NCBI GenBank assembly: GCA_905480425.1
Contig: CAJQQG010000032.1
Location: 1 to 41,795, forward strand
Length of the DNA: 41,795 bases
Reading direction: 5' to 3'
From: an uncultured Flavobacteriaceae bacterium
GTDB taxonomy: Bacteria; Bacteroidota; Bacteroidia; Flavobacteriales; Flavobacteriaceae
The notes below the pieces were generated by a model. The model saw only the letters and a list, made by a program, of their open reading frames with translations, ran no database searches and had not been told where the DNA came from. Each line of letters starts with the position of its first letter. The first letter of the stretch is position 1. The translations under genes and the position numbers were made by a program. Below, in pieces: positions 136 to 21,818 of this stretch.

Positions 136-1143
136 TTAAACCTTAGCTGACTTTACAGTTTTAATTATACGTGCAGCAATTTTATATGGGTCACCATTAG
201 AGGAAGGTCTTCTGTCTTCCAACCATCCTTTCCAGCCTTTCTCAACTGTCATTATAGGAATTCTGATCGAAGCACCGCGGTCAGAAACACCAAAACTAAA
301 TTCATCAATAGATTGAGTTTCATGTGCACCAGTTAAACGTAGGTCATTGTGCGCTCCATAAACTTCAATATGCTCTTTAACAACAGGTCGGAATGCTTCA
401 CAAATCTTACTATAAGTTTCCTCAGAACCACAGGTTCTAAGAACTTCATTTGAAAAGTTTGCATGCATACCAGATCCATTCCAATCGGTGGCACCGAGTG
501 GTTTAGGATGCCATTCAATAGCAAGGCCATATTTTTCACCTAAACGTTCAAGTAAATATCTTGATACCCACATTTCGTCTCCAGCTTTTTGAGCACCTTC
601 TGCAAAACATTGGTATTCCCATTGCCCAGAAGCAACTTCAGCATTAATTCCCTCCACATTAATACCAGCTTCTAAACATTGATCTAAATGCTCTTCAATC
701 ATTTCTCTACCAAAAGCATTCCTAGCTCCAACAGAACAGTAGAATTGTCCTTGAGGTGTTTGGTCTTTGGGGAAACCGAAAGGAAGATTGGTTTCTGGGT
801 CCCAAAGGAAGTACTCTTGTTCAAAACCAAACCAAAAATCATCGTCATCGTCATCAATGGTAGCGCGACCATTTGAAGCATGTGGTGTTCCATCAGCATT
901 TAAAACCTCTGTCATTACCAGCCAACCGTTTTTACGATCAGGATCTTGATAAAGTGCCACAGGCTTTAAAAGACAATCAGAAGCACTTCCTTCCGCTTGT
1001 CTTGTTGAAGAACCATCAAATGACCATATCGGACAATCTTCTAAAGTGCCTTTAAAATTAGTTGCAATTTTGGTTTTACTTCGGAGACTAGCTGTGGGCT
1101 CATAACCATCCAACCAAATATATTCAAGTTTAGCTTTACTCAT
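136..1143 (-). CDS. glnA: Glutamine synthetase, type II (GSII, eukaryote-like)
   Basis: ATP-dependent ligation of ammonium to glutamate in the cytoplasm. At 335 residues it has GSII length, not the roughly 470 of GSI. Visible landmarks: beta-grasp domain with W-S-F-D-G-S-S-T (40-47), metal/substrate motif GFEQEYF (106-112), NGSGMH (222-227), ETQSIDEFSFGVSDRGASIRIP region (275-296) and EDRRPSSNGDPY (309-320), matching the GSII signature E-DRRP-SN-DPY. A run of six Asp (97-102) precedes the GFEQEYF motif. It is divergent from glnN, a type III enzyme, and the 200-bp space between them holds a palindrome also found before the porin-glnK-amt operon, so nitrogen control is likely. Family call is firm. 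Confidence 0.97.
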   Translation of the reverse strand: MSKAKLEYIWLDGYEPTASLRSKTKIATNFKGTLEDCPIWSFDGSSTRQAEGSASDCLLKPVALYQDPDRKNGWLVMTEVLNADGTPHASNGRATIDDDDDDFWFGFEQEYFLWDPETNLPFGFPKDQTPQGQFYCSVGARNAFGREMIEEHLDQCLEAGINVEGINAEVASGQWEYQCFAEGAQKAGDEMWVSRYLLERLGEKYGLAIEWHPKPLGATDWNGSGMHANFSNEVLRTCGSEETYSKICEAFRPVVKEHIEVYGAHNDLRLTGAHETQSIDEFSFGVSDRGASIRIPIMTVEKGWKGWLEDRRPSSNGDPYKIAARIIKTVKSAKV

Positions 1144-1343: not shown

Positions 1344-3527
1344 ATGGAAACTCTTCGTAAAAACAGTCTTTCTAATCTTTCTTTAAAATTATTTGAAGTT
1401 TCCGCGGCACCCTCAGGTCCGATTGAATTTGGATCTCATGTATTCAATACACAGAAGCTTGAACAGTACCTAAGCGAGAAAGCTTTTCATCAACTTGAGC
1501 AATCTGTTAACAAAGGAACTCCTATTTTAACAGTTTTAGCAGATCAAATTGCTGCCGCTATGAAAGCATGGGCCATTTCCAAGGGAGCTACACATTATAC
1601 CCATTGGTTTCAACCGCTAACAGGAGCTACTGCAGAAAAACATGATTCGTTTTTTGGGTTAAATGCAGAAGGGATTCAAATTGAAAAGTTTGAAGGAGAG
1701 CAATTAGTTCAACAAGCCCCAGAGTCTTCTAATGTATCAAGTGGAGGAATTCGCAATACTTTTGAGGCAAGAGGTTATACAACTTGGGATCCAACATCTC
1801 CTGCTTTTCTATATAATACAACACTATGTATACCAACTCTTTTTATTTCTTTCACAGGAGAGTCGTTAGATTACAAAACCCCTTTGCTAAAATCATTGCA
1901 AAAATTAGATCATGCAGCAACAGAAATTTGTCATTATTTTGATAAATCGGTAAATAAGGTTGATGCTACCTTAGGGTGGGAACAAGAATATTTTTTAATT
2001 GACAGGAGTTTAGCCTTAACACGTCCCGATTTGATACTTACAGGTAGAACCCTAATGGGTCATGTTCCTTCTAAGGGCCAAGAGTTAAACGATCATTATT
2101 TTGGATCTATTCCTGTTCGAGTGAGTCGTTTTCTAAATGCTCTTGAAAAAGAATGTAAAATATTGGGAATTCCAATAAAAACAAGACATAACGAGGTTGC
2201 TCCAAGCCAGTACGAGTTAGCTCCTGTTTTTGAATCCGCAAATTTGGCAATTGATCATAACGCTCTAGTTATGGATATTATGAACAAGGAGGCAAGTAAG
2301 CATAACTTTATCGTTTTATTTCATGAAAAACCCTTCGAAAAAATTAACGGCTCTGGCAAACACAATAATTGGTCGTTGAACACAAATAAAGGAGTTAATT
2401 TATTGAGTCCTGGAAAAACTCCCATGAGTAATTTGCAATTTCTCACCTTTTTCGTTAATACTATTGCAGCGGTATTAAAGCATGAAGCACTCCTAAGAGC
2501 CTCATCAGTTTCAGCTAGTAACGATCTCCGAATTGGAATGCAGGAGGCGCCTTCTGCTATGTTGTCAATTTTTATAGGAAAACACTTAAAACAAGTTTTG
2601 GAAGATTTGGAAAATGTTTCAAAAGGGAAATTGTCACCTAAAGAAAAGACTGACTTAAAGTTAAATGTAATTGGAAAAATTCCAGAAATCCTTCTTGATA
2701 ATACTGATAAAAACAGAACATCACCTTTCGCCTTTACAGGGGATAAATTTGAATTTAGAACCGTTGGGTCTAAAACAAATTGTGCCAAACCTGTTACTGT
2801 TATTAACTCTATTGTAACTGAACAGCTTATTGAATTTAAGGTTTCTGTTGATGGATTGATTGATGATAAAAACATGAAAAAAGATGATGCTATTTTTAAT
2901 ACACTCAGGGAAACCATTACATCTATTAAAGATATTTTTAATGACGAAGAATATGATCAATCTAAAATAGATTCACTAGCCAAAAAGAAAGGATTAAGTA
3001 ATCATAAAACCACTCCAGAAGCACTACCTGCTTATGTAAGTGATCTTTCTATTACTCTATTTGAGACTTTAGGTGTTTTTAGTAAAAATGAACTGTTAGC
3101 TCGTTATAAGATTGATTTAGAGGCGTATATCTCAACCATACAAATAGAGTCGAGAACTCTTGGTGATTTAGCACAAAACCATATTATTCCTACTTCTATA
3201 AAGTATCAAAATACCCTTATTGAGAACGTACGTGGATTAAAAGAAATATATAGTTCAAATTTTAAGATTCATGCACGCGAGCAGATTTTAATTTTAGAAA
3301 GAGTTTCAAATCATATTACTGAAATTAACAATGCGATATCTTTAATGATAAAAGCTCGAAAGAAGGCTGATATTATCAAAGATACTCATGAAAAAGCGTT
3401 AGTATATTGCAAAACTATTTTACCTTTTTTAAATAGTATTCGTTATCAGTGTGATAAATTAGAACTTACAGTAGATGATCAAATATGGCCGCTAGCAAAG
3501 TATCGTGAATTGTTGTTTATTCGTTAA
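1344..3527 (+). CDS. glnN: Glutamine synthetase, type III (GSIII)
   Basis: Second, unrelated-length glutamine synthetase: 727 residues is typical of GSIII, a large form common in Bacteroidota and some cyanobacteria. Recognisable parts: N-terminal EARGYTTWDPTSPAF region, catalytic GWEQEYFLID, the EVAPSQYELAP segment, KINGSGKHNNWS (ammonium/glutamate site), NDLRIGMQEAPS (ATP side), NRTSPFAFTG-KFEFR, and a long helical C-terminal extension specific to GSIII. It starts 200 bp from divergent glnA and shares the putative nitrogen operator. Having GSII and GSIII together suggests expression under different nitrogen conditions, which is inference. Confidence 0.97.
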   Translation: METLRKNSLSNLSLKLFEVSAAPSGPIEFGSHVFNTQKLEQYLSEKAFHQLEQSVNKGTPILTVLADQIAAAMKAWAISKGATHYTHWFQPLTGATAEKHDSFFGLNAEGIQIEKFEGEQLVQQAPESSNVSSGGIRNTFEARGYTTWDPTSPAFLYNTTLCIPTLFISFTGESLDYKTPLLKSLQKLDHAATEICHYFDKSVNKVDATLGWEQEYFLIDRSLALTRPDLILTGRTLMGHVPSKGQELNDHYFGSIPVRVSRFLNALEKECKILGIPIKTRHNEVAPSQYELAPVFESANLAIDHNALVMDIMNKEASKHNFIVLFHEKPFEKINGSGKHNNWSLNTNKGVNLLSPGKTPMSNLQFLTFFVNTIAAVLKHEALLRASSVSASNDLRIGMQEAPSAMLSIFIGKHLKQVLEDLENVSKGKLSPKEKTDLKLNVIGKIPEILLDNTDKNRTSPFAFTGDKFEFRTVGSKTNCAKPVTVINSIVTEQLIEFKVSVDGLIDDKNMKKDDAIFNTLRETITSIKDIFNDEEYDQSKIDSLAKKKGLSNHKTTPEALPAYVSDLSITLFETLGVFSKNELLARYKIDLEAYISTIQIESRTLGDLAQNHIIPTSIKYQNTLIENVRGLKEIYSSNFKIHAREQILILERVSNHITEINNAISLMIKARKKADIIKDTHEKALVYCKTILPFLNSIRYQCDKLELTVDDQIWPLAKYRELLFIR

Positions 3528-3590: not shown

Positions 3591-4757
3591 ATGTTAGATA
3601 GGTACAGTCAGCGAGGAGTTTCAGCACAAAAAGAAGATGTTCATAAAGCCATAAAAAAAATAGATAAAGGATTATACCCTAAAGCCTTTTGTAAAATAAT
3701 TCCAGATTATATTTCTGGAAGCGAGGAGCATGCCATTATAATGCATGCAGACGGTGCAGGAACAAAGTCATCTTTAGCATATATGTATTGGAAAGAAACA
3801 GGTGATCTTTCTGTCTGGAAAGGAATTGCACAAGATGCGCTTATCATGAATATTGATGATTTACTTTGTGTGGGAGTAACTGAAAATATTTTACTTTCCT
3901 CTACCATTGGAAGAAACAAAAATCATATCCCAGGTGAGGTGATTTCTGCTATAATTCAAGGTACAGAAGAGTTAATATTCAAGCTTGGTGAATGGGGAGT
4001 AACCATTCATAGTTCAGGTGGCGAAACCGCAGATATTGGAGATTTAGTACGAACCATAATTGTAGATTCAACAGTAACAGCAAGAATTGCAAAAAAGAAT
4101 ATCATAGATAATGCAAATATTCAAGCCGGAGATGTTATAGTTGGTTTGGCTTCAGATGGGCAGGCAACTTATGAAGACGAATACAATGGAGGGATGGGAA
4201 GTAATGGCTTGACATCAGCCCGGCACGACGTTTTTTCAAAAATTTTTGCTTCTAAATATCCCGAAAGCTTTGATTCTAAGCTACCTGAAAATTTAATTTA
4301 TTCTGGATCAAAAGAATTAACCAGTACCCTTGAAGGGGTTCCTTTGGATGTAGGAAAATTAGTTTTGTCTCCAACAAGAACATACGCACCGGTTATTCAA
4401 AAGATTTTTAGTCAAATGGGCACCACTTCTATTCACGGAATGGTACATTGCAGCGGAGGTGCTCAAACAAAAATATTACACTTTGTAAACAACCTCCATA
4501 TTATAAAAGATTCATTATTCCCTGTTCCTCCTTTATTTGATTTAATTCAAAAAGAGTCTGGAACTTCAGGTAGAGAAATGTATCAAGTTTTTAATATGGG
4601 GCATCGAATGGAATTATACGTATCACCAGATAAAGTAGAAGAGATATTGTCAATCTCTGATTCTTTTAATGTAAAGGCACAAATTGTTGGACGTGTAGAA
4701 GCTGCTCCTAAAAACAAATTAACGTTAGACACAACCTATGGCACCTTTAATTATTAA
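3591..4757 (+). CDS. purM: Phosphoribosylformylglycinamidine cyclo-ligase (AIR synthase), Bacteroidota type
   Basis: Purine biosynthesis: ATP-dependent ring closure of FGAM to AIR. The start MLDRYSQRGVSAQKEDV, the H-ADGAGTKSSLAY segment, the Asp-rich ALIMNIDDLLCVG and the GGETAD motif are the PurM/AIRS-family ATP and substrate elements. At 388 residues it is longer than E. coli PurM (about 345) and belongs to the divergent form used by Bacteroidota, often annotated only as AIR synthase-related protein. It has its own -7 element and may head the run b561-like, yceI, prfA, pyrF. The other AIRS paralogues (SelD, ThiL, HypE) are excluded by the N-terminal motif. Confidence 0.9.
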   Translation: MLDRYSQRGVSAQKEDVHKAIKKIDKGLYPKAFCKIIPDYISGSEEHAIIMHADGAGTKSSLAYMYWKETGDLSVWKGIAQDALIMNIDDLLCVGVTENILLSSTIGRNKNHIPGEVISAIIQGTEELIFKLGEWGVTIHSSGGETADIGDLVRTIIVDSTVTARIAKKNIIDNANIQAGDVIVGLASDGQATYEDEYNGGMGSNGLTSARHDVFSKIFASKYPESFDSKLPENLIYSGSKELTSTLEGVPLDVGKLVLSPTRTYAPVIQKIFSQMGTTSIHGMVHCSGGAQTKILHFVNNLHIIKDSLFPVPPLFDLIQKESGTSGREMYQVFNMGHRMELYVSPDKVEEILSISDSFNVKAQIVGRVEAAPKNKLTLDTTYGTFNY

Positions 4758-11279: not shown

Positions 11280-12521
11280 TTAATGTTGATTTAATCTGAA
11301 GTCAGCATAGGCATCCATACCGTGTTCAGACAAATCTAATCCTTTAATTTCTTCCTCTGCTTCAACGCGAAGACCGGTAGTCTTTTTAACAATAAATAAA
11401 ATTAAAGTGGCACTTATAACAGAAAATGCCCCTACAATTCCAACACCGGCTAATTGAATTATAAATTGATCAAATCCAGCCATGGCACCAAAAATACCAA
11501 CTGCTAAAGTTCCCCATATTCCACATACTAAGTGAACAGCGACGGCACCAACTGGATCATCTAATTTTAATTTATCAATAAATGATACGGCAAGAACAAT
11601 AAGTATTCCAGCAACAAGTCCAATAAGAATGGCGTCGGTAGGACTCATTTGATCTGCGCCAGCTGTAATTCCTACGAGCCCTCCCAAAACACCATTCATA
11701 AACATTGTTAGGTCAAAATTTTTATACATTAAATTAGAAAAAATTGCTGCTGAAACTCCACCAGCAGCAGCGGCCAAACAAGTGGTTACTAGAGTTAAAG
11801 AAGTGAGTTCTGGATCAGCAGAAAGCACAGATCCACCATTAAATCCAAACCATCCTAACCAAAGAATTAGAACTCCTGCAGAGGCTAATGGAATATTATG
11901 TCCTGGAATTGCATTTGCAATTCCATTTTTTTCAAATTTTCCAATTCGAGCACCTAACATGTAAATCGCCATTAAAGCTGCCCATCCTCCTACAGAGTGA
12001 ACAAGAGTTGATCCAGCAAAGTCATAAAATCCCCAAGAGTCCAAAAATCCACCACCCCATTTCCATGAACCTATAATTGGATATATTAATCCAACATAAA
12101 TAACTGAGAATAACATAAATCCTTTTAATTTGATGCGTTCAGCAACAGCGCCTGATACAATAGTAGCAGCAGTAGCTGCAAACATGGCTTGGAATAAAAA
12201 GTCAGTCCACCAAGTGTATCCTCCACTTGCATATTCAGCAGTCATTCCTCCATCTGGAGGAGCTATACCAAATCCAGCAAACTTTAGAATTCCAAGAGAT
12301 CCCTCTTCAAAGCCTGGATACATTAGGTTGAAGCCTCCTAGGCAGTATAGGAGAATGCCAGCAGAGATAACGAAAAAATTTTTAAATAAAATATTTACAG
12401 CATTTTTTTGGCGTGTCAATCCTATTTCTAAGAAGGAAAAACCAAGATGCATAAAAAAGACAAGAGCTGTACAGATCATCATCCATACATTGTTAGCGGT
12501 AAAAAGTGCAGTGCTTTCCAT
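11280..12521 (-). CDS. amt: Ammonium transporter
   Basis: Inner-membrane Amt/Mep/Rh channel-like transporter for ammonium. 413 residues with about 11 hydrophobic segments. The pore twin histidines are H175 (STLVHSVGG) and H330 (VAVHLVCG), with FNGGSVL and the NGVLGGLVGITAGAD signature also present. There is no long N-terminal signal segment; a short charged tail follows the last helix. It is the third gene of a porin-glnK-amt unit, 24 bp after glnK; PII proteins classically block Amt, so GlnK control is expected from family knowledge. Confidence 0.97.
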   Translation of the reverse strand: MESTALFTANNVWMMICTALVFFMHLGFSFLEIGLTRQKNAVNILFKNFFVISAGILLYCLGGFNLMYPGFEEGSLGILKFAGFGIAPPDGGMTAEYASGGYTWWTDFLFQAMFAATAATIVSGAVAERIKLKGFMLFSVIYVGLIYPIIGSWKWGGGFLDSWGFYDFAGSTLVHSVGGWAALMAIYMLGARIGKFEKNGIANAIPGHNIPLASAGVLILWLGWFGFNGGSVLSADPELTSLTLVTTCLAAAAGGVSAAIFSNLMYKNFDLTMFMNGVLGGLVGITAGADQMSPTDAILIGLVAGILIVLAVSFIDKLKLDDPVGAVAVHLVCGIWGTLAVGIFGAMAGFDQFIIQLAGVGIVGAFSVISATLILFIVKKTTGLRVEAEEEIKGLDLSEHGMDAYADFRLNQH

Positions 12522-12545: not shown

Positions 12546-12884
12546 TTAGTTTAAAGAGTTACTTCCTTTTTCTCCAGTACGAATTCTGTAGGCTTCGTCT
12601 ACCGGAAGGACAAATATTTTCCCATCACCTACTGAATCTGTAGCTGCTGATTTTAAAATAGCATCAATAGTAAGTTTTACAAAATCATCATTTACGATAA
12701 TAGAAAGGTATCGTCTTTGTATTTCTGAGGTGCTGTAACTAATTCCTCGGTATACGTGACCTTCTTTTTCATTTCCCACTCCAGTTACATCCCAGTAGCT
12801 AAAGAAATTTACCTCCACATTATGCAGTGCTTCTTTTACTTGATCAAATTTAGATTTCCTAATAATTGCTTCAATTTTTTTCAT
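12546..12884 (-). CDS. glnK: Nitrogen regulatory protein PII
   Basis: 112-residue PII family trimer subunit, sensing 2-oxoglutarate and ATP/ADP. Clear PII core: MKKIEAIIRKSKF start, YRG-SY in the T-loop (Y45, Y50 matching E. coli Y46 and the uridylylated Y51) and the nucleotide-binding end VGDGKIF-VDEAYRIRTGE. Positions that bind 2-oxoglutarate/Mg-ATP in E. coli PII differ: the RQ of GFGRQKG is N38-E39 here, and K58 aligns with R57. Placed between porin and amt. The link to Amt is strong from context; whether it is uridylylated is not known. Confidence 0.95.
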   Translation of the reverse strand: MKKIEAIIRKSKFDQVKEALHNVEVNFFSYWDVTGVGNEKEGHVYRGISYSTSEIQRRYLSIIVNDDFVKLTIDAILKSAATDSVGDGKIFVLPVDEAYRIRTGEKGSNSLN

Positions 12885-12938: not shown

Positions 12939-13961
12939 TTAAAAAGAATAGATAGCAGCAACTACAAATGAAGCAAGATTATCAGCTGTTTCTGTTGGTG
13001 ATATAGCAAAGATTTCTGAGGAAGCAGAGTCAATTCTAAATTCAGGCTTGAAAGTAAAGTTTCCAGCAGTGTAGCTACCTGTTAATGTTAATGAAAAATT
13101 ATCTGCATCACCATCACTTACTAATGCACCAAAACCGTCTGTTTCTGAGAAAAATTCTCCTCTGAGACCAATGGCGAATGAATCTGATGTAGTAATTTGT
13201 GGATATAAAGCAACTCCAGCAAAACCGGTATCACCCCCAAGAGTAGCCGTAGTAGCATTAATTCCTATGAAAAAACTATCAGATAAATCAAAACCACCCG
13301 TGTAATCAATCTGGAAGTAATCTTCACCAGCTAATAAGTTTATATATTGACCATAAAGACCAAGCTGTGCACCGAAAGCAGTGTAGCGATCATAATTTGC
13401 TTCTGTCTGATCTGTTTGGTTAAAAATTCCTAACATTAACGATATGTCATCAGATAATGTAAAGTCTGCTTTTATCCCAGTGTGAGAAAAAGGACCGTAT
13501 GAAAACATATAAGAAGTGGAGTAGTTAAAGTTCGCTGCTGGCGATATAACTTCATATCCTAAAAAGGTGTTGAAATTTCCTAACGTAATCTTCACCCCTT
13601 CAGCAATATTGTAATATGCATACAATTGATTTACTAGTTCTGAAGAATTTCCTGAAGAACCAAATACAGCGTCGGAACCTCTAGGACCAAAAACAACATC
13701 TGCAACAAATCCTGATTTTTCGCCTTCATAAGAAACAATAAAGTTTGCCATTCCTAAGGCGAAACCGTTAAGGTTAGCAAAAGACGTTCCGGGCGCTACA
13801 GGATCTTCGGAAAAACTTGTTCTAAAATAAGTATCTACAGTTCCGCTGAAATTGAATGTCGCTTCTTCTGCAGGTTCTTCTGTTTCTTGCGCTGATAGTA
13901 ATGCATTATTGAACATAACAAGCGAAATACTAAGAATAAATAAAGTTTTAAAATTTTTCAT
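12939..13961 (-). CDS. Outer-membrane beta-barrel porin of the ammonium operon
   Basis: 340 residues: signal peptide (about 1-25, ending LSAQ), an acidic linker (ETEEPAEEA), then many alternating amphipathic strands ending in a terminal aromatic (AAIYSF), the hallmark of outer-membrane barrels. It resembles the putative OmpL-like porin-2 family seen next to amt in Bacteroidota. First gene of the porin-glnK-amt run, so it probably lets small nitrogen solutes cross the outer membrane; that role is inference from context. Confidence 0.8.
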   Translation of the reverse strand: MKNFKTLFILSISLVMFNNALLSAQETEEPAEEATFNFSGTVDTYFRTSFSEDPVAPGTSFANLNGFALGMANFIVSYEGEKSGFVADVVFGPRGSDAVFGSSGNSSELVNQLYAYYNIAEGVKITLGNFNTFLGYEVISPAANFNYSTSYMFSYGPFSHTGIKADFTLSDDISLMLGIFNQTDQTEANYDRYTAFGAQLGLYGQYINLLAGEDYFQIDYTGGFDLSDSFFIGINATTATLGGDTGFAGVALYPQITTSDSFAIGLRGEFFSETDGFGALVSDGDADNFSLTLTGSYTAGNFTFKPEFRIDSASSEIFAISPTETADNLASFVVAAIYSF

Positions 13962-13984
13962 ATTAATTAGTTTAAGATTTGAAC

Positions 13985-13992
13985 CAAAAATA
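13985..13992 (-). promoter_or_regulatory. -7 promoter element of the porin-glnK-amt operon
   Basis: The minus strand reads TATTTTTG, a perfect TAnnTTTG, 24 bp before the porin ATG. A -33 TTTG is missing; the palindrome at 14011-14027 is centred near -40 instead, the place where class II activators bind. Confidence 0.6.
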
Positions 13993-14010
13993 ATATAATA
14001 TAATGTTTGA

Positions 14011-14027
14011 CCCTATAAAAAAAGGGG
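14011..14027. promoter_or_regulatory. Proximal palindromic operator of the porin-glnK-amt operon
   Basis: CCCTATAAAAAAAGGGG: CCC-N10-GGG, an imperfect version of CCCCTA/TAGGGG. Centre about 40 bp upstream of the estimated start site and 53 bp (about five helical turns) from the distal copy. Confidence 0.6.
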
Positions 14028-14062
14028 CCTATAGACTAACTTTTAAATATATTTAAAATTTA

Positions 14063-14080
14063 CCCCCTAAAAAATAGGGG
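14063..14080. promoter_or_regulatory. Distal palindromic operator of the porin-glnK-amt operon
   Basis: CCCCCTAAAAAATAGGGG contains the perfect inverted repeat CCCCTA-N5-TAGGGG. The same element in the opposite A/T orientation lies between glnA and glnN. It is between the crcB stop (14134) and the porin start and points to no terminator function, since no T run follows on either side. Confidence 0.65.
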
Positions 14081-14133
14081 CATCATAAAATAATAATATA
14101 TAATTTATGAAATTATCAAAAAAAAGGGATTAC

Positions 14134-14511
14134 TTAAGAATCTCCTAATCTAAATAGGTAATATCCGAGAGCCACTAAAAAAAGCCCTCCAATAAGGCTT
14201 AACAAGGTATAGGACATAAAAGTCCAATAATCCCCTGATTTTAAAAAGTCCAAACCCTCAAGACTAAAGGCTGAAAAAGTGGTAAGACCTCCGCAGAAAC
14301 CAATAACTGAAAATATATAAAAATCTGAACGTGAGAGATTGTTTTTTAAAACCCATGCCATTAAAAATCCAATCAAAAGACATCCTAAATAATTGACCAA
14401 TAGAGTGGGCCAAGGGAACATCCCTTTTGGAACAGGGATTAATTTGCTCGTCAGAAAACGGAATAGACTCCCAAGTCCACCTCCTATAAAAACATAAAGA
14501 AAGGCTTTCAT
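14134..14511 (-). CDS. crcB: Fluoride ion channel CrcB/Fluc
   Basis: Exports fluoride as a dual-topology dimer. 125 residues, four membrane helices, with the family motifs GGGLGSLFRF near the start, the conserved Asn in NYLGCLLIGF, and GFCGGLTTFSAFSLE carrying the Phe box and Thr/Ser of the central Na+ site. Overlaps the preceding small gene by ATGA. I saw no fluoride riboswitch; its start is inside the upstream reading frame. Confidence 0.95.
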   Translation of the reverse strand: MKAFLYVFIGGGLGSLFRFLTSKLIPVPKGMFPWPTLLVNYLGCLLIGFLMAWVLKNNLSRSDFYIFSVIGFCGGLTTFSAFSLEGLDFLKSGDYWTFMSYTLLSLIGGLFLVALGYYLFRLGDS

Positions 14512-19770: not shown

Positions 19771-20658
19771 ATGAGTTTTATTTTTTATGGTATCTTTCCC
19801 ATGGATTTTATGAATGCATTTAGACAATTTATCAAACTTTTTAATCATACATTTACTATTGGTGAAAGTATTTACTTTACCCCAAAATCAATATTAATTG
19901 TTATTCTGGTCTTTGTTCTGACCTCACTGTTATTAAAAATTTTCAGAAAAATAATTTATCGAACACTTTCCGATGACGCTAGAGTTAAGTTTAAAAGTAT
20001 TTTTTCTTTTTTTAATTATTTTGTCTACACTGTAGTTGTTTTACTAACATTTCAAAATGTCGGGGTTAATCTGACAGCAGTTTTTGCTGCTTCTGCTGCA
20101 CTATTAGTTGGTGTTGGTCTTGCTTTGCAAACGTTTATCCAGGATATAATTTCAGGTATTTTTATACTGGTTGATCAATCAGTTCATGTTGGTGATATAA
20201 TTGAAGTTGATGGGCAAGTTGGAAAAGTTGAGAATATAAAATTAAGAACAACTAGGGCTGTTACTCGAGAAAATAAAGTATTGATTATTCCAAATCATAA
20301 ATTTTTAACCTCTATTTTATTTAACTGGACTGAAAATGGGGTGATTACAAAAGAGTTTGTTGCAGTAGGGGTAAGTTATGACACCGATGCCGAAAAAGTA
20401 ACAAAATTATTATTAGAAATTGCTGAAGGTCACAAAGCAATTTTAAAAAAACCAATTCCACAGGTTATTTTTAATGATTTCGGTGATAGTGCCTTACAAT
20501 TCCAACTTTACTTTGCATTAAACCGAAGTTTTGTGTCAAATATTGTGAAGAGTGATTTACGTTATTTAATCTTACTTAAGTTCAAGAAAGAAAATATTGA
20601 AATCCCATTCCCACAACGTACCTTAAGTTTTGTTAATTCACCAAAACCTTTGAAATGA
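19771..20658 (+). CDS. Small-conductance mechanosensitive channel (MscS family)
   Basis: 295 residues, inner membrane. About three hydrophobic segments; the third is the pore helix, LTAVFAASAALLVGVGLALQTFIQDIISG, with the Ala/Gly pattern of MscS TM3. It is followed by the beta domain (VGDIIEVDGQVGKVENIKLRTT, then N-T-LIIPNH) and the alpha/beta C-terminal cage. Releases solutes on osmotic downshock. Overlaps the response regulator by ATGA (20655-20658), suggesting co-expression but not proving a joint role. The ATG at 19801 (MDFMNAF) is a possible later start. Confidence 0.93.
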   Translation: MSFIFYGIFPMDFMNAFRQFIKLFNHTFTIGESIYFTPKSILIVILVFVLTSLLLKIFRKIIYRTLSDDARVKFKSIFSFFNYFVYTVVVLLTFQNVGVNLTAVFAASAALLVGVGLALQTFIQDIISGIFILVDQSVHVGDIIEVDGQVGKVENIKLRTTRAVTRENKVLIIPNHKFLTSILFNWTENGVITKEFVAVGVSYDTDAEKVTKLLLEIAEGHKAILKKPIPQVIFNDFGDSALQFQLYFALNRSFVSNIVKSDLRYLILLKFKKENIEIPFPQRTLSFVNSPKPLK

Positions 20659-21818
20659 TTCAAGTTTTATTAATCGAAGACGAAGAGTCTATCAGAAGGG
20701 TAATGTCTAGAATTTTAAAGGAAGAAAATGATCAATATCAGATTACTGAGGCTGTAGACGGTAAACAGGGTTTAGATTTGTTATTCAAAATACAATTTGA
20801 TCTTGTACTATGTGACATCAAAATGCCTAAAATGGATGGTATTGAAGTTTTGAAAAAGGCCAATGATGAAATGCTTAATATTCCTTTTATTATGTTGACA
20901 GGACATGGGAATATTGAAACTGCTGTAGAGGCAATGAAATTAGGGGCATATGATTTTATTTCAAAACCTCCAGATTTAAATCGTTTACTGAATTCTGTTC
21001 GGCATGCAGTAGAAAATAAATCATTGCGTTCAGAAAACACTAAACTTAAAAATAAGGTAGCTCAAAAATATTTAATTATAGGTGAAAGTTTTTCTATTGA
21101 AGAAGTTAAAAGAATGATTTCTAAAGTAGCATCAACAGACGCACGCGTTCTTATAACTGGAGAAAACGGCACTGGAAAAGAATTAGTGGCCCAACAACTT
21201 CACCAGCAAAGTGAACGTTTTAAAGAAAACTTTATTGAAGTAAATTGTGCTGCAATACCCTCTGAATTAATAGAGAGTGAACTTTTCGGACATGTTAGAG
21301 GCGCTTTCACTTCTGCGGTAAAAGATCGTTCTGGAAAATTTGAAGCTGCTCATAATGGAACATTGTTTTTAGATGAAATTGCAGATATGAGTTTAGCAGC
21401 TCAAGCTAAAGTATTAAGAGCATTGCAAGAGAAAAAAATTCAGAGAGTAGGAAATGAAAAAGATATTTCTGTTGATGTTCGAGTCATTGCGGCGAGTAAT
21501 AAGAATTTAAAACAAGAGATAAAAGAAGGTAGGTTTAGGGAAGACTTATACCACCGTTTAGCCGTTATACTCATTCATGTTCCCACGCTAAAAGAGCGTC
21601 TTGATGATATTCCTTTGCTAACATATCATTTTATAAATCTCTTAACTAAAGAACAAGGACTTGAAAATAAACTTTTTTCTCCAGAAGCACTTCAAAAGCT
21701 TAAAGATTATCCATGGTCAGGTAATGTAAGGGAATTACGGAATGTAGTTGAACGCCTAATGATTCTGGGTGATAATCCAATTACGTCTGAAAATATTAAT
21801 CAGTTTGCACCAAAGTAA
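20655..21818 (+). CDS. Sigma-54-type response regulator lacking a DNA-binding domain
   Basis: 387 residues. Receiver domain 1-120 with phospho-acceptor D54 and K104; AAA+ domain about 135-375 with Walker A GENGTGKE (169-176), the sigma-54 contact loop GAFTSA (216-221, where GAFTGA is the classic form), Walker B GTLFLDE (235-241) and the arginine-finger region REDLYHRL. It ends right after the AAA+ lid at INQFAPK; the usual Fis-type helix-turn-helix is missing. It could therefore activate sigma-54 without specific DNA binding. No partner kinase is in the window; target genes unknown. Confidence 0.93.
   Translation: MIQVLLIEDEESIRRVMSRILKEENDQYQITEAVDGKQGLDLLFKIQFDLVLCDIKMPKMDGIEVLKKANDEMLNIPFIMLTGHGNIETAVEAMKLGAYDFISKPPDLNRLLNSVRHAVENKSLRSENTKLKNKVAQKYLIIGESFSIEEVKRMISKVASTDARVLITGENGTGKELVAQQLHQQSERFKENFIEVNCAAIPSELIESELFGHVRGAFTSAVKDRSGKFEAAHNGTLFLDEIADMSLAAQAKVLRALQEKKIQRVGNEKDISVDVRVIAASNKNLKQEIKEGRFREDLYHRLAVILIHVPTLKERLDDIPLLTYHFINLLTKEQGLENKLFSPEALQKLKDYPWSGNVRELRNVVERLMILGDNPITSENINQFAPK

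Follow-up and report, generated by a model that had tools for sequence, protein, structure and literature searches.

Paired dyads at a fixed distance from the -7 box mark a candidate nitrogen-assimilation control region in Flavobacteriaceae

Nitrogen genes are classic targets of NtrC, and nitrogen control by repression is known from AmtR and from the GlnR of Bacillus. The TnrA/GlnR regulators of Bacillota, which are of the MerR type, recognise TGTNA-N7-TNACA, and regulators of the Lrp/AsnC type act on gltBD and on alanine dehydrogenase. The CRP site, TGTGA-N6-TCACA, is an even dyad. Flavobacteria abound in surface seawater, an ammonium-poor environment. The open-licence literature, in the portions available, names no regulator or operator for ammonium uptake or assimilation in flavobacteria, and the same portions name neither the operator sequence described here nor its family-wide geometry or its nitrogen regulon in Flavobacteriaceae. 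A comparable promoter layout has been described in E. coli. An excerpt of PMC2859248 places CRP at class II promoters with its centre at -41.5 and the C-terminal domain of the RNA polymerase alpha subunit (alpha-CTD) upstream on AT-rich DNA, where it covers 6 bp of A/T-rich sequence 18-19 bp from the CRP centre. CRP sites also accumulate at -93.5, and at deoC a CytR site lies between CRP sites near -40 and -90 (both from parts of PMC5957442). Activator promoters of the tandem class II/III type are already known.

We analysed 41,795 nucleotides of DNA from an uncultured Flavobacteriaceae bacterium (contig CAJQQG010000032.1), and this whole stretch is referred to as the window. It contains a minus-strand operon for a BBP2-family beta-barrel porin as the first gene (12939-13961; PF07642, 1.7e-58), the PII protein GlnK (12546-12884; PF00543, 1.3e-22) and the ammonium transporter Amt (11280-12521; PF00909, 1.3e-112). 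The upstream neighbour, crcB (14134-14511, minus strand), is co-directional with this operon, and two dyads and a -7 box occupy the gap between crcB and the porin gene. The proximal dyad has a 17-bp core, CCCCTTTTTTTATAGGG (14011-14027, centre 14019, minus strand), and the distal dyad a 17-bp core, CCCCTATTTTTTAGGGG (14064-14080, centre 14072, minus strand), with matrix scores of 18.4 and 23.6, respectively. The -7 box, TATTTTTG (13992-13985, minus strand), fits TAnnTTTG fully, as the first-pass annotation had claimed, and on visual reading the -33 zone of the promoter showed no TTTG, also as claimed there. In the available parts of two 5'-end mapping reports, TAnnTTTG is located at -12 to -5 in F. 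psychrophilum (PMC9723704) and in F. johnsoniae (PMC6847099). Transcription is therefore predicted to start near 13980 on the minus strand with a leader of 19 nt, and the dyads would be centred at about -39 and -92. This agrees with the earlier estimate that the proximal palindrome lies about 40 bp before the start. The distance of 53 bp between the two centres, about five helical turns, was likewise recovered, both by reading the sequence and by a direct-repeat search.

The arrangement resembles the class II and deoC promoters of E. coli in that the proximal site lies near -40 over the -33/-35 zone, the second site about 50 bp upstream, and A/T-rich DNA between them. It differs in the dyad, which in the matrix and in the window sites has the form CCC-N11-GGG with an odd centre and an A/T-rich middle. 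The Bacteroidota -7 box and the nitrogen genes under the promoter are further differences from CRP control.

A palindromic matrix was trained on 76 homologous promoters, with at most two sites of at least 7 bits allowed in each. The training promoters came from 60 stretches around GlnK, from 15 loci carrying relatives of the porin, and from the window. The GlnK search covered 120 genomes, each with a different genus label, and the 60 stretches, all of the same family, represent 62 of its 77 strong GlnK matches; 14 were not taken and one was that of the window. Half of the 30 porin-relative loci were kept out of the training, either for cut or misplaced starts (L071, L072, L074, L075, L080, L085, L087, L088 and L089), for Ns (L082) or for want of clear dyads (L069, L076, L078, L081 and L084), and the presence count was for this reason taken from the 60 GlnK stretches. 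The matrix resolved to [A/C]CCC-N11-GGG[G/T], the centre being A/T throughout. At the 7-bit threshold, the first gene of the operon was preceded by two dyads in 42 of the 60 loci, by one in 12 and by none in 6, one of which (L141) has its upstream region off the contig. The 76 promoters contained 57 pairs, and the spacing was 53 bp in 42 pairs, 52 bp in 10, 54 bp in 3, 51 bp in 1 and 157 bp in a single outlier. The dyads follow the promoter and not a particular gene: they stand before the porin gene in porin-glnK-amt operons and before glnK in glnK-amt-porin operons. The exact tandem pattern was present in 25 of 60 family genomes, the window's included, compared with 2 of 60 for the reversed control, and its three GC-rich occurrences are probably due to chance. 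Outside the family, 37 of 266 genomes carried the pattern and 30 carried the control, so there was no sign of the tandem operator in those genomes. In genus g121 the pattern was found in none of 17 genomes.

The distance between the proximal dyad and the core promoter was also found to be conserved. In 48 of the 56 two-dyad promoters TAnnTTT starts 25-27 bp downstream of the centre of the proximal dyad, compared with 0 to 5 of 56 when control windows of equal size were displaced by 3 to 15 bp. Six held-out porin-amt promoters, which had been found by the tandem pattern alone, had the box at 26, 26, 27, 26, 26 and 28 bp. Start-codon distances were excluded as evidence because open reading frames called from the first start frequently come out too long (L134-L136, L144). 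The proximal site, centred at about -39, is near the -41 of class II promoters and overlaps the -35/-33 zone, and the second site is in helical phase with it (52-54 bp in 55 of 57 pairs). TTG occurred in the -33 zone of only 8 of the 56 promoters, and the zone is mostly occupied by the GGG of the right half-site. The first-pass annotation had counted the missing -33 element towards activation. This argument is weak, since the parts of PMC6847099 and PMC7366714 at hand describe F. johnsoniae promoters with little or no -33 motif, and its absence is a rule of the group and not evidence of an activator.

We consider it likely that this promoter region belongs to a nitrogen-assimilation regulon of the Flavobacteriaceae and that two in-phase dimers of one regulator, at about -39 and -92, activate transcription from it under nitrogen limitation. 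Both dimers would bind their dyads from one side of the helix. The nearer one, lying over the -33 zone, would assist RNA polymerase at a promoter whose -7 box is good but which lacks a -33 box, and the distal dimer, five turns upstream, would increase activation, probably through alpha-CTDs seated on the intervening A/T-rich DNA. Nitrogen limitation would be the inducing signal. The two-site, in-phase class II geometry put forward in the first-pass annotation gains strong support from the spacing and from the fixed offset of the -7 box, and activation would be more probable than repression. The six dyad-less loci, four genomes with degenerate dyads and the varied offsets at glutamine synthetase and alanine dehydrogenase genes, described below, were counted against this reading.

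The same sites could be repressor operators that block transcription in ammonium excess, with the distal dimer providing cooperativity or a small loop, so that nitrogen limitation frees the operon. The polymerase footprint extends over part of a site at -39, phasing along the helix would also suit cooperative repressors, and a constraint on position at -39 is possible for a repressor too. However, the dyad/-7 distance, which varies by only about 1 bp in 48 of 56 promoters, appears tighter than blocking would need, and what is conserved is a position 25-27 bp upstream of the -7 box, away from the box itself and from the start. The fixed distance therefore seems to fit contact with polymerase better than simple blocking, and we regard repression as unlikely.

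Neither the A-tract that is conserved between the dyads nor the glutamine synthetase operator of the window had been mentioned in the first-pass annotation. In the window the A-tract reads TTAAAAGT (14039-14046, minus strand), at -27 to -20 from the proximal centre. The family consensus, ATAAAAAT, starting at -27 from the proximal centre, was exact in 25 of the 56 promoters and present with at most two mismatches in 39 of 56; none of the other offsets tried gave more than 12. By eye the A-tract was seen in five of the six held-out porin-amt promoters, and it was retained in L076, L078, L081 and L084 despite their largely degenerate dyads. Its centre is about 23 bp from the proximal dyad, which is similar but not identical to the 18-19 bp of CRP and alpha-CTD in E. 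coli. A three-part switch like that of deoC is conceivable here, with activator dimers at about -39 and -92 and the A-tract as the site of a second regulator or of alpha-CTD; this would refine the activator explanation and does not exclude it. The fixed offset of the A-tract and its recurrence in the held-out promoters and in the four degenerate-dyad genomes speak for such a switch. At deoC the CytR site lies between the CRP sites, so a second regulator at the A-tract is also possible. Bending alone can, however, conserve A/T-rich DNA, and no A-tract was evident on visual reading at the equivalent place in glutamine synthetase and alanine dehydrogenase promoters. The three-part arrangement is a doubtful, though not a negligible, refinement of activation by two dimers.

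Scanning of the window with the matrix gave matches of at least 12, and likewise of at least 16, at three sites only (six overlapping matches in 41.8 kb): 14019, 14072 and 1242. In 20 Markov-1 shuffles of the window, matches of at least 16 numbered zero in seventeen and one in three, and those of at least 12 totalled 11. The site at 1242, which was held out of training, scored 27.1. Isolated dyads elsewhere in this and related genomes scored 17.8 to 24.9, so the score of a lone site is not decisive and it is the pair and its position that count. Some of these single dyads lie inside open frames (L280, 18.7; L271, 18.4; L274, 17.8). Two others, in L268 (centre 3009, 24.9 bits) and L273 (centre 3070, 21.6), lie just 3' of a gene and are perhaps terminators, which is a warning for use of the matrix genome-wide. 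Loose single-dyad patterns for genome searches were dropped, as in three scans they matched less often than the reversed control and their matches were mostly chance; variable positions had been fixed in them, which accounts for the low counts, and the matrix took their place. With the core pattern, 28 sites were found in four small genomes compared with 15 for the reversed control, and 2 compared with 5 in G052.

Another candidate reading takes the two dyads upstream of the porin gene as transcription terminators of crcB. A consensus scan of 13900-14200 returned three terminator-like calls compared with 0.2 in shuffles, two of them at the distal dyad and the third inside crcB, and crcB runs in the direction of the operon in the window, as it does in 24 of the 60 loci. 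The proximal dyad, however, was not called by the scan, and 20 of 21 porin-first loci with a divergent gltB upstream, where no gene runs in, keep the pair. RNA folding did not stand out clearly from shuffles (z values of -1.29 and -0.44, with 23 and 59 of 200 shuffles folding equally well), and no Rfam match was obtained at E 1. Termination would also leave the constant spacing and the constant distance to the -7 box unexplained, and we judge it highly improbable.

The third matrix site, at 1234-1250 (centre 1242, no strand), lies between two divergent glutamine synthetase genes. One encodes a type II enzyme, GSII (136-1143, minus strand), which matches PF03951 and PF00120 and scores 362.8 bits against NF041605, short of the cut-off of 500; the other encodes a type III enzyme, GSIII (1344-3527, plus strand; PF12437 GSIII_N, 5e-68). 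On the GSII side, 52-53 bp from 1242, a half-degenerate partner dyad was read by eye at 1181-1197 (no strand), below the matrix threshold. The strong dyad and this partner, as read visually, make 1181-1250 a repeat of the tandem layout. TATTTTAG is a possible -7 box for GSII.

Tandem dyads were found at comparable genes in other genomes. Among 18 stretches with the core pattern, three had tandem sites, at the glutamine synthetases of L272, between gltB and a porin gene in L284 and at the alanine dehydrogenase gene (ald) of L285. Further tandem dyads lie between gltB and porin-amt (L168, L178, L183, L185, L186 and L201), before GSIII (L181), between GSII and GSIII (L200, as in L272) and before ald (L179 and L198, as in L285). 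Family searches confirmed gltB in L168, GSIII in L181 and ald in L285, and the other target genes were recognised by sight. All A/T-centred pairs with neighbours that were read serve ammonium uptake or assimilation. TAnnTTT was found at an offset of 24 for GSII in both L200 and L272, at 18 (L200) and 37 (L181) for GSIII with none in L272, and at 27 (L198), 28 (L179) and 44 (L285) for ald. Since these offsets vary, the strict offset is limited to glnK/amt promoters. The dyads at ald suggest that alanine dehydrogenase may be controlled jointly with ammonium assimilation, and those at glnK-amt, gltB, glutamine synthetase and ald together appear to outline a nitrogen-assimilation regulon of the Flavobacteriaceae.

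The status of nitrogen genes as NtrC targets favours a sigma-54 promoter with NtrC-type enhancer sites, and the window does encode a response regulator of the sigma-54 activator type (20655-21818). Its Pfam matches, however, end at the AAA lid domain, with no Fis-type HTH. By eye no GG-N10-GC was found from the proximal dyad to the start codon, and the promoter has a conserved sigma-A -7 box. The selected sigma-54 promoters tabulated for F. psychrophilum, in the part of PMC9723704 available, serve chaperone, motility and envelope genes. Control by sigma-54 at these dyads is on this evidence barely credible.

We also searched for the regulator that would bind the dyads. A Crp-type HTH (PF13545) was found neither in the window genome (G000, 85% complete) nor in G052 (90% complete), both of which bear the dyads, and it was present in G043 and G046. 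A CRP/FNR regulator is therefore unlikely, with some room left by the incompleteness of the two genomes. MerR proteins occurred in 24 of 24 genomes searched, LysR proteins in 16 of 17 and AsnC proteins in 17 of 17, with dyads or not. In the alignments no change in the HTH tracked the dyads, and none of these three families visibly covaried with them. A K-or-N position in MerR matched the dyads in 8 of 9 genomes but not in G008; a second set did not confirm it, and it was rejected. No transcription factor was recognised by eye in the 28 neighbour clusters that occur most often around the 60 loci. In the stretches with candidate regulators the best dyad scored 14.9 (L307) and was reckoned to lie inside a gene.

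The dyads share with TnrA/GlnR sites the triplet-N11-triplet build and the A/T-rich centre, and the targets are in both cases genes of nitrogen assimilation. A small MerR protein occurs in all 24 genomes searched. Among its three PDB matches was GlnR 7tec (E 9e-4), and its best NCBIfam match was HspR, far below the cut-off. The half-site spacing and the 7tec match serve as leads only. The dyads described here have CCC/GGG in place of TGT/ACA and are paired 53 bp apart, and the small MerR also occurs where dyads are missing. Its HTH was much alike in the four degenerate-dyad genomes. Only a large MerR was found in the genome of L069, which is without clear dyads and for which no completeness is given. 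The Lrp/AsnC regulators are similar with respect to the targets gltB and ald, phased multiple sites and odd dyads. They are set apart by the finding that each of the two AsnC-type proteins of the window genome is matched, in close relatives whose operon lacks dyads, by a protein with a similar HTH. An AsnC-type gene was observed at G064:C51:7219-7395, beside L127 and about 3 kb from a dyad-less glnK operon.

We tentatively propose, at somewhat less than even chances, that these promoters belong to a general nitrogen regulon of the Flavobacteriaceae whose regulator would stand outside NtrC, NtcA/CRP, TnrA/GlnR and AmtR. Such a regulon would be read through a three-part code on promoters without a -33 box, with one dimer five turns from the other and an A-tract that serves alpha-CTD or a second regulator. 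Knowing the operator, how it is arranged and which genes it fronts provides bait for the regulator, and the promoter is a ready test for activation of the unusual sigma-A of the phylum where a -33 box is missing.

The operator is not kept in all members of the family. In L091, L092 and L093 (genomes G020, G095 and G065) the operon was kept and no recognisable dyads were found around it, and the GlnK proteins of these genomes are among the most similar to that of the window. Dyad control may have been lost or replaced in these three loci. L076, L078, L081 and L084, from three 'AG-' isolates and one metagenome bin, retain the -7 box with largely degenerate dyads, and a change in the specificity of the regulator is possible there. 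An AGCC...GGCT palindrome was observed at the distal place in some of these four stretches, in which the porin gene is at 4001.
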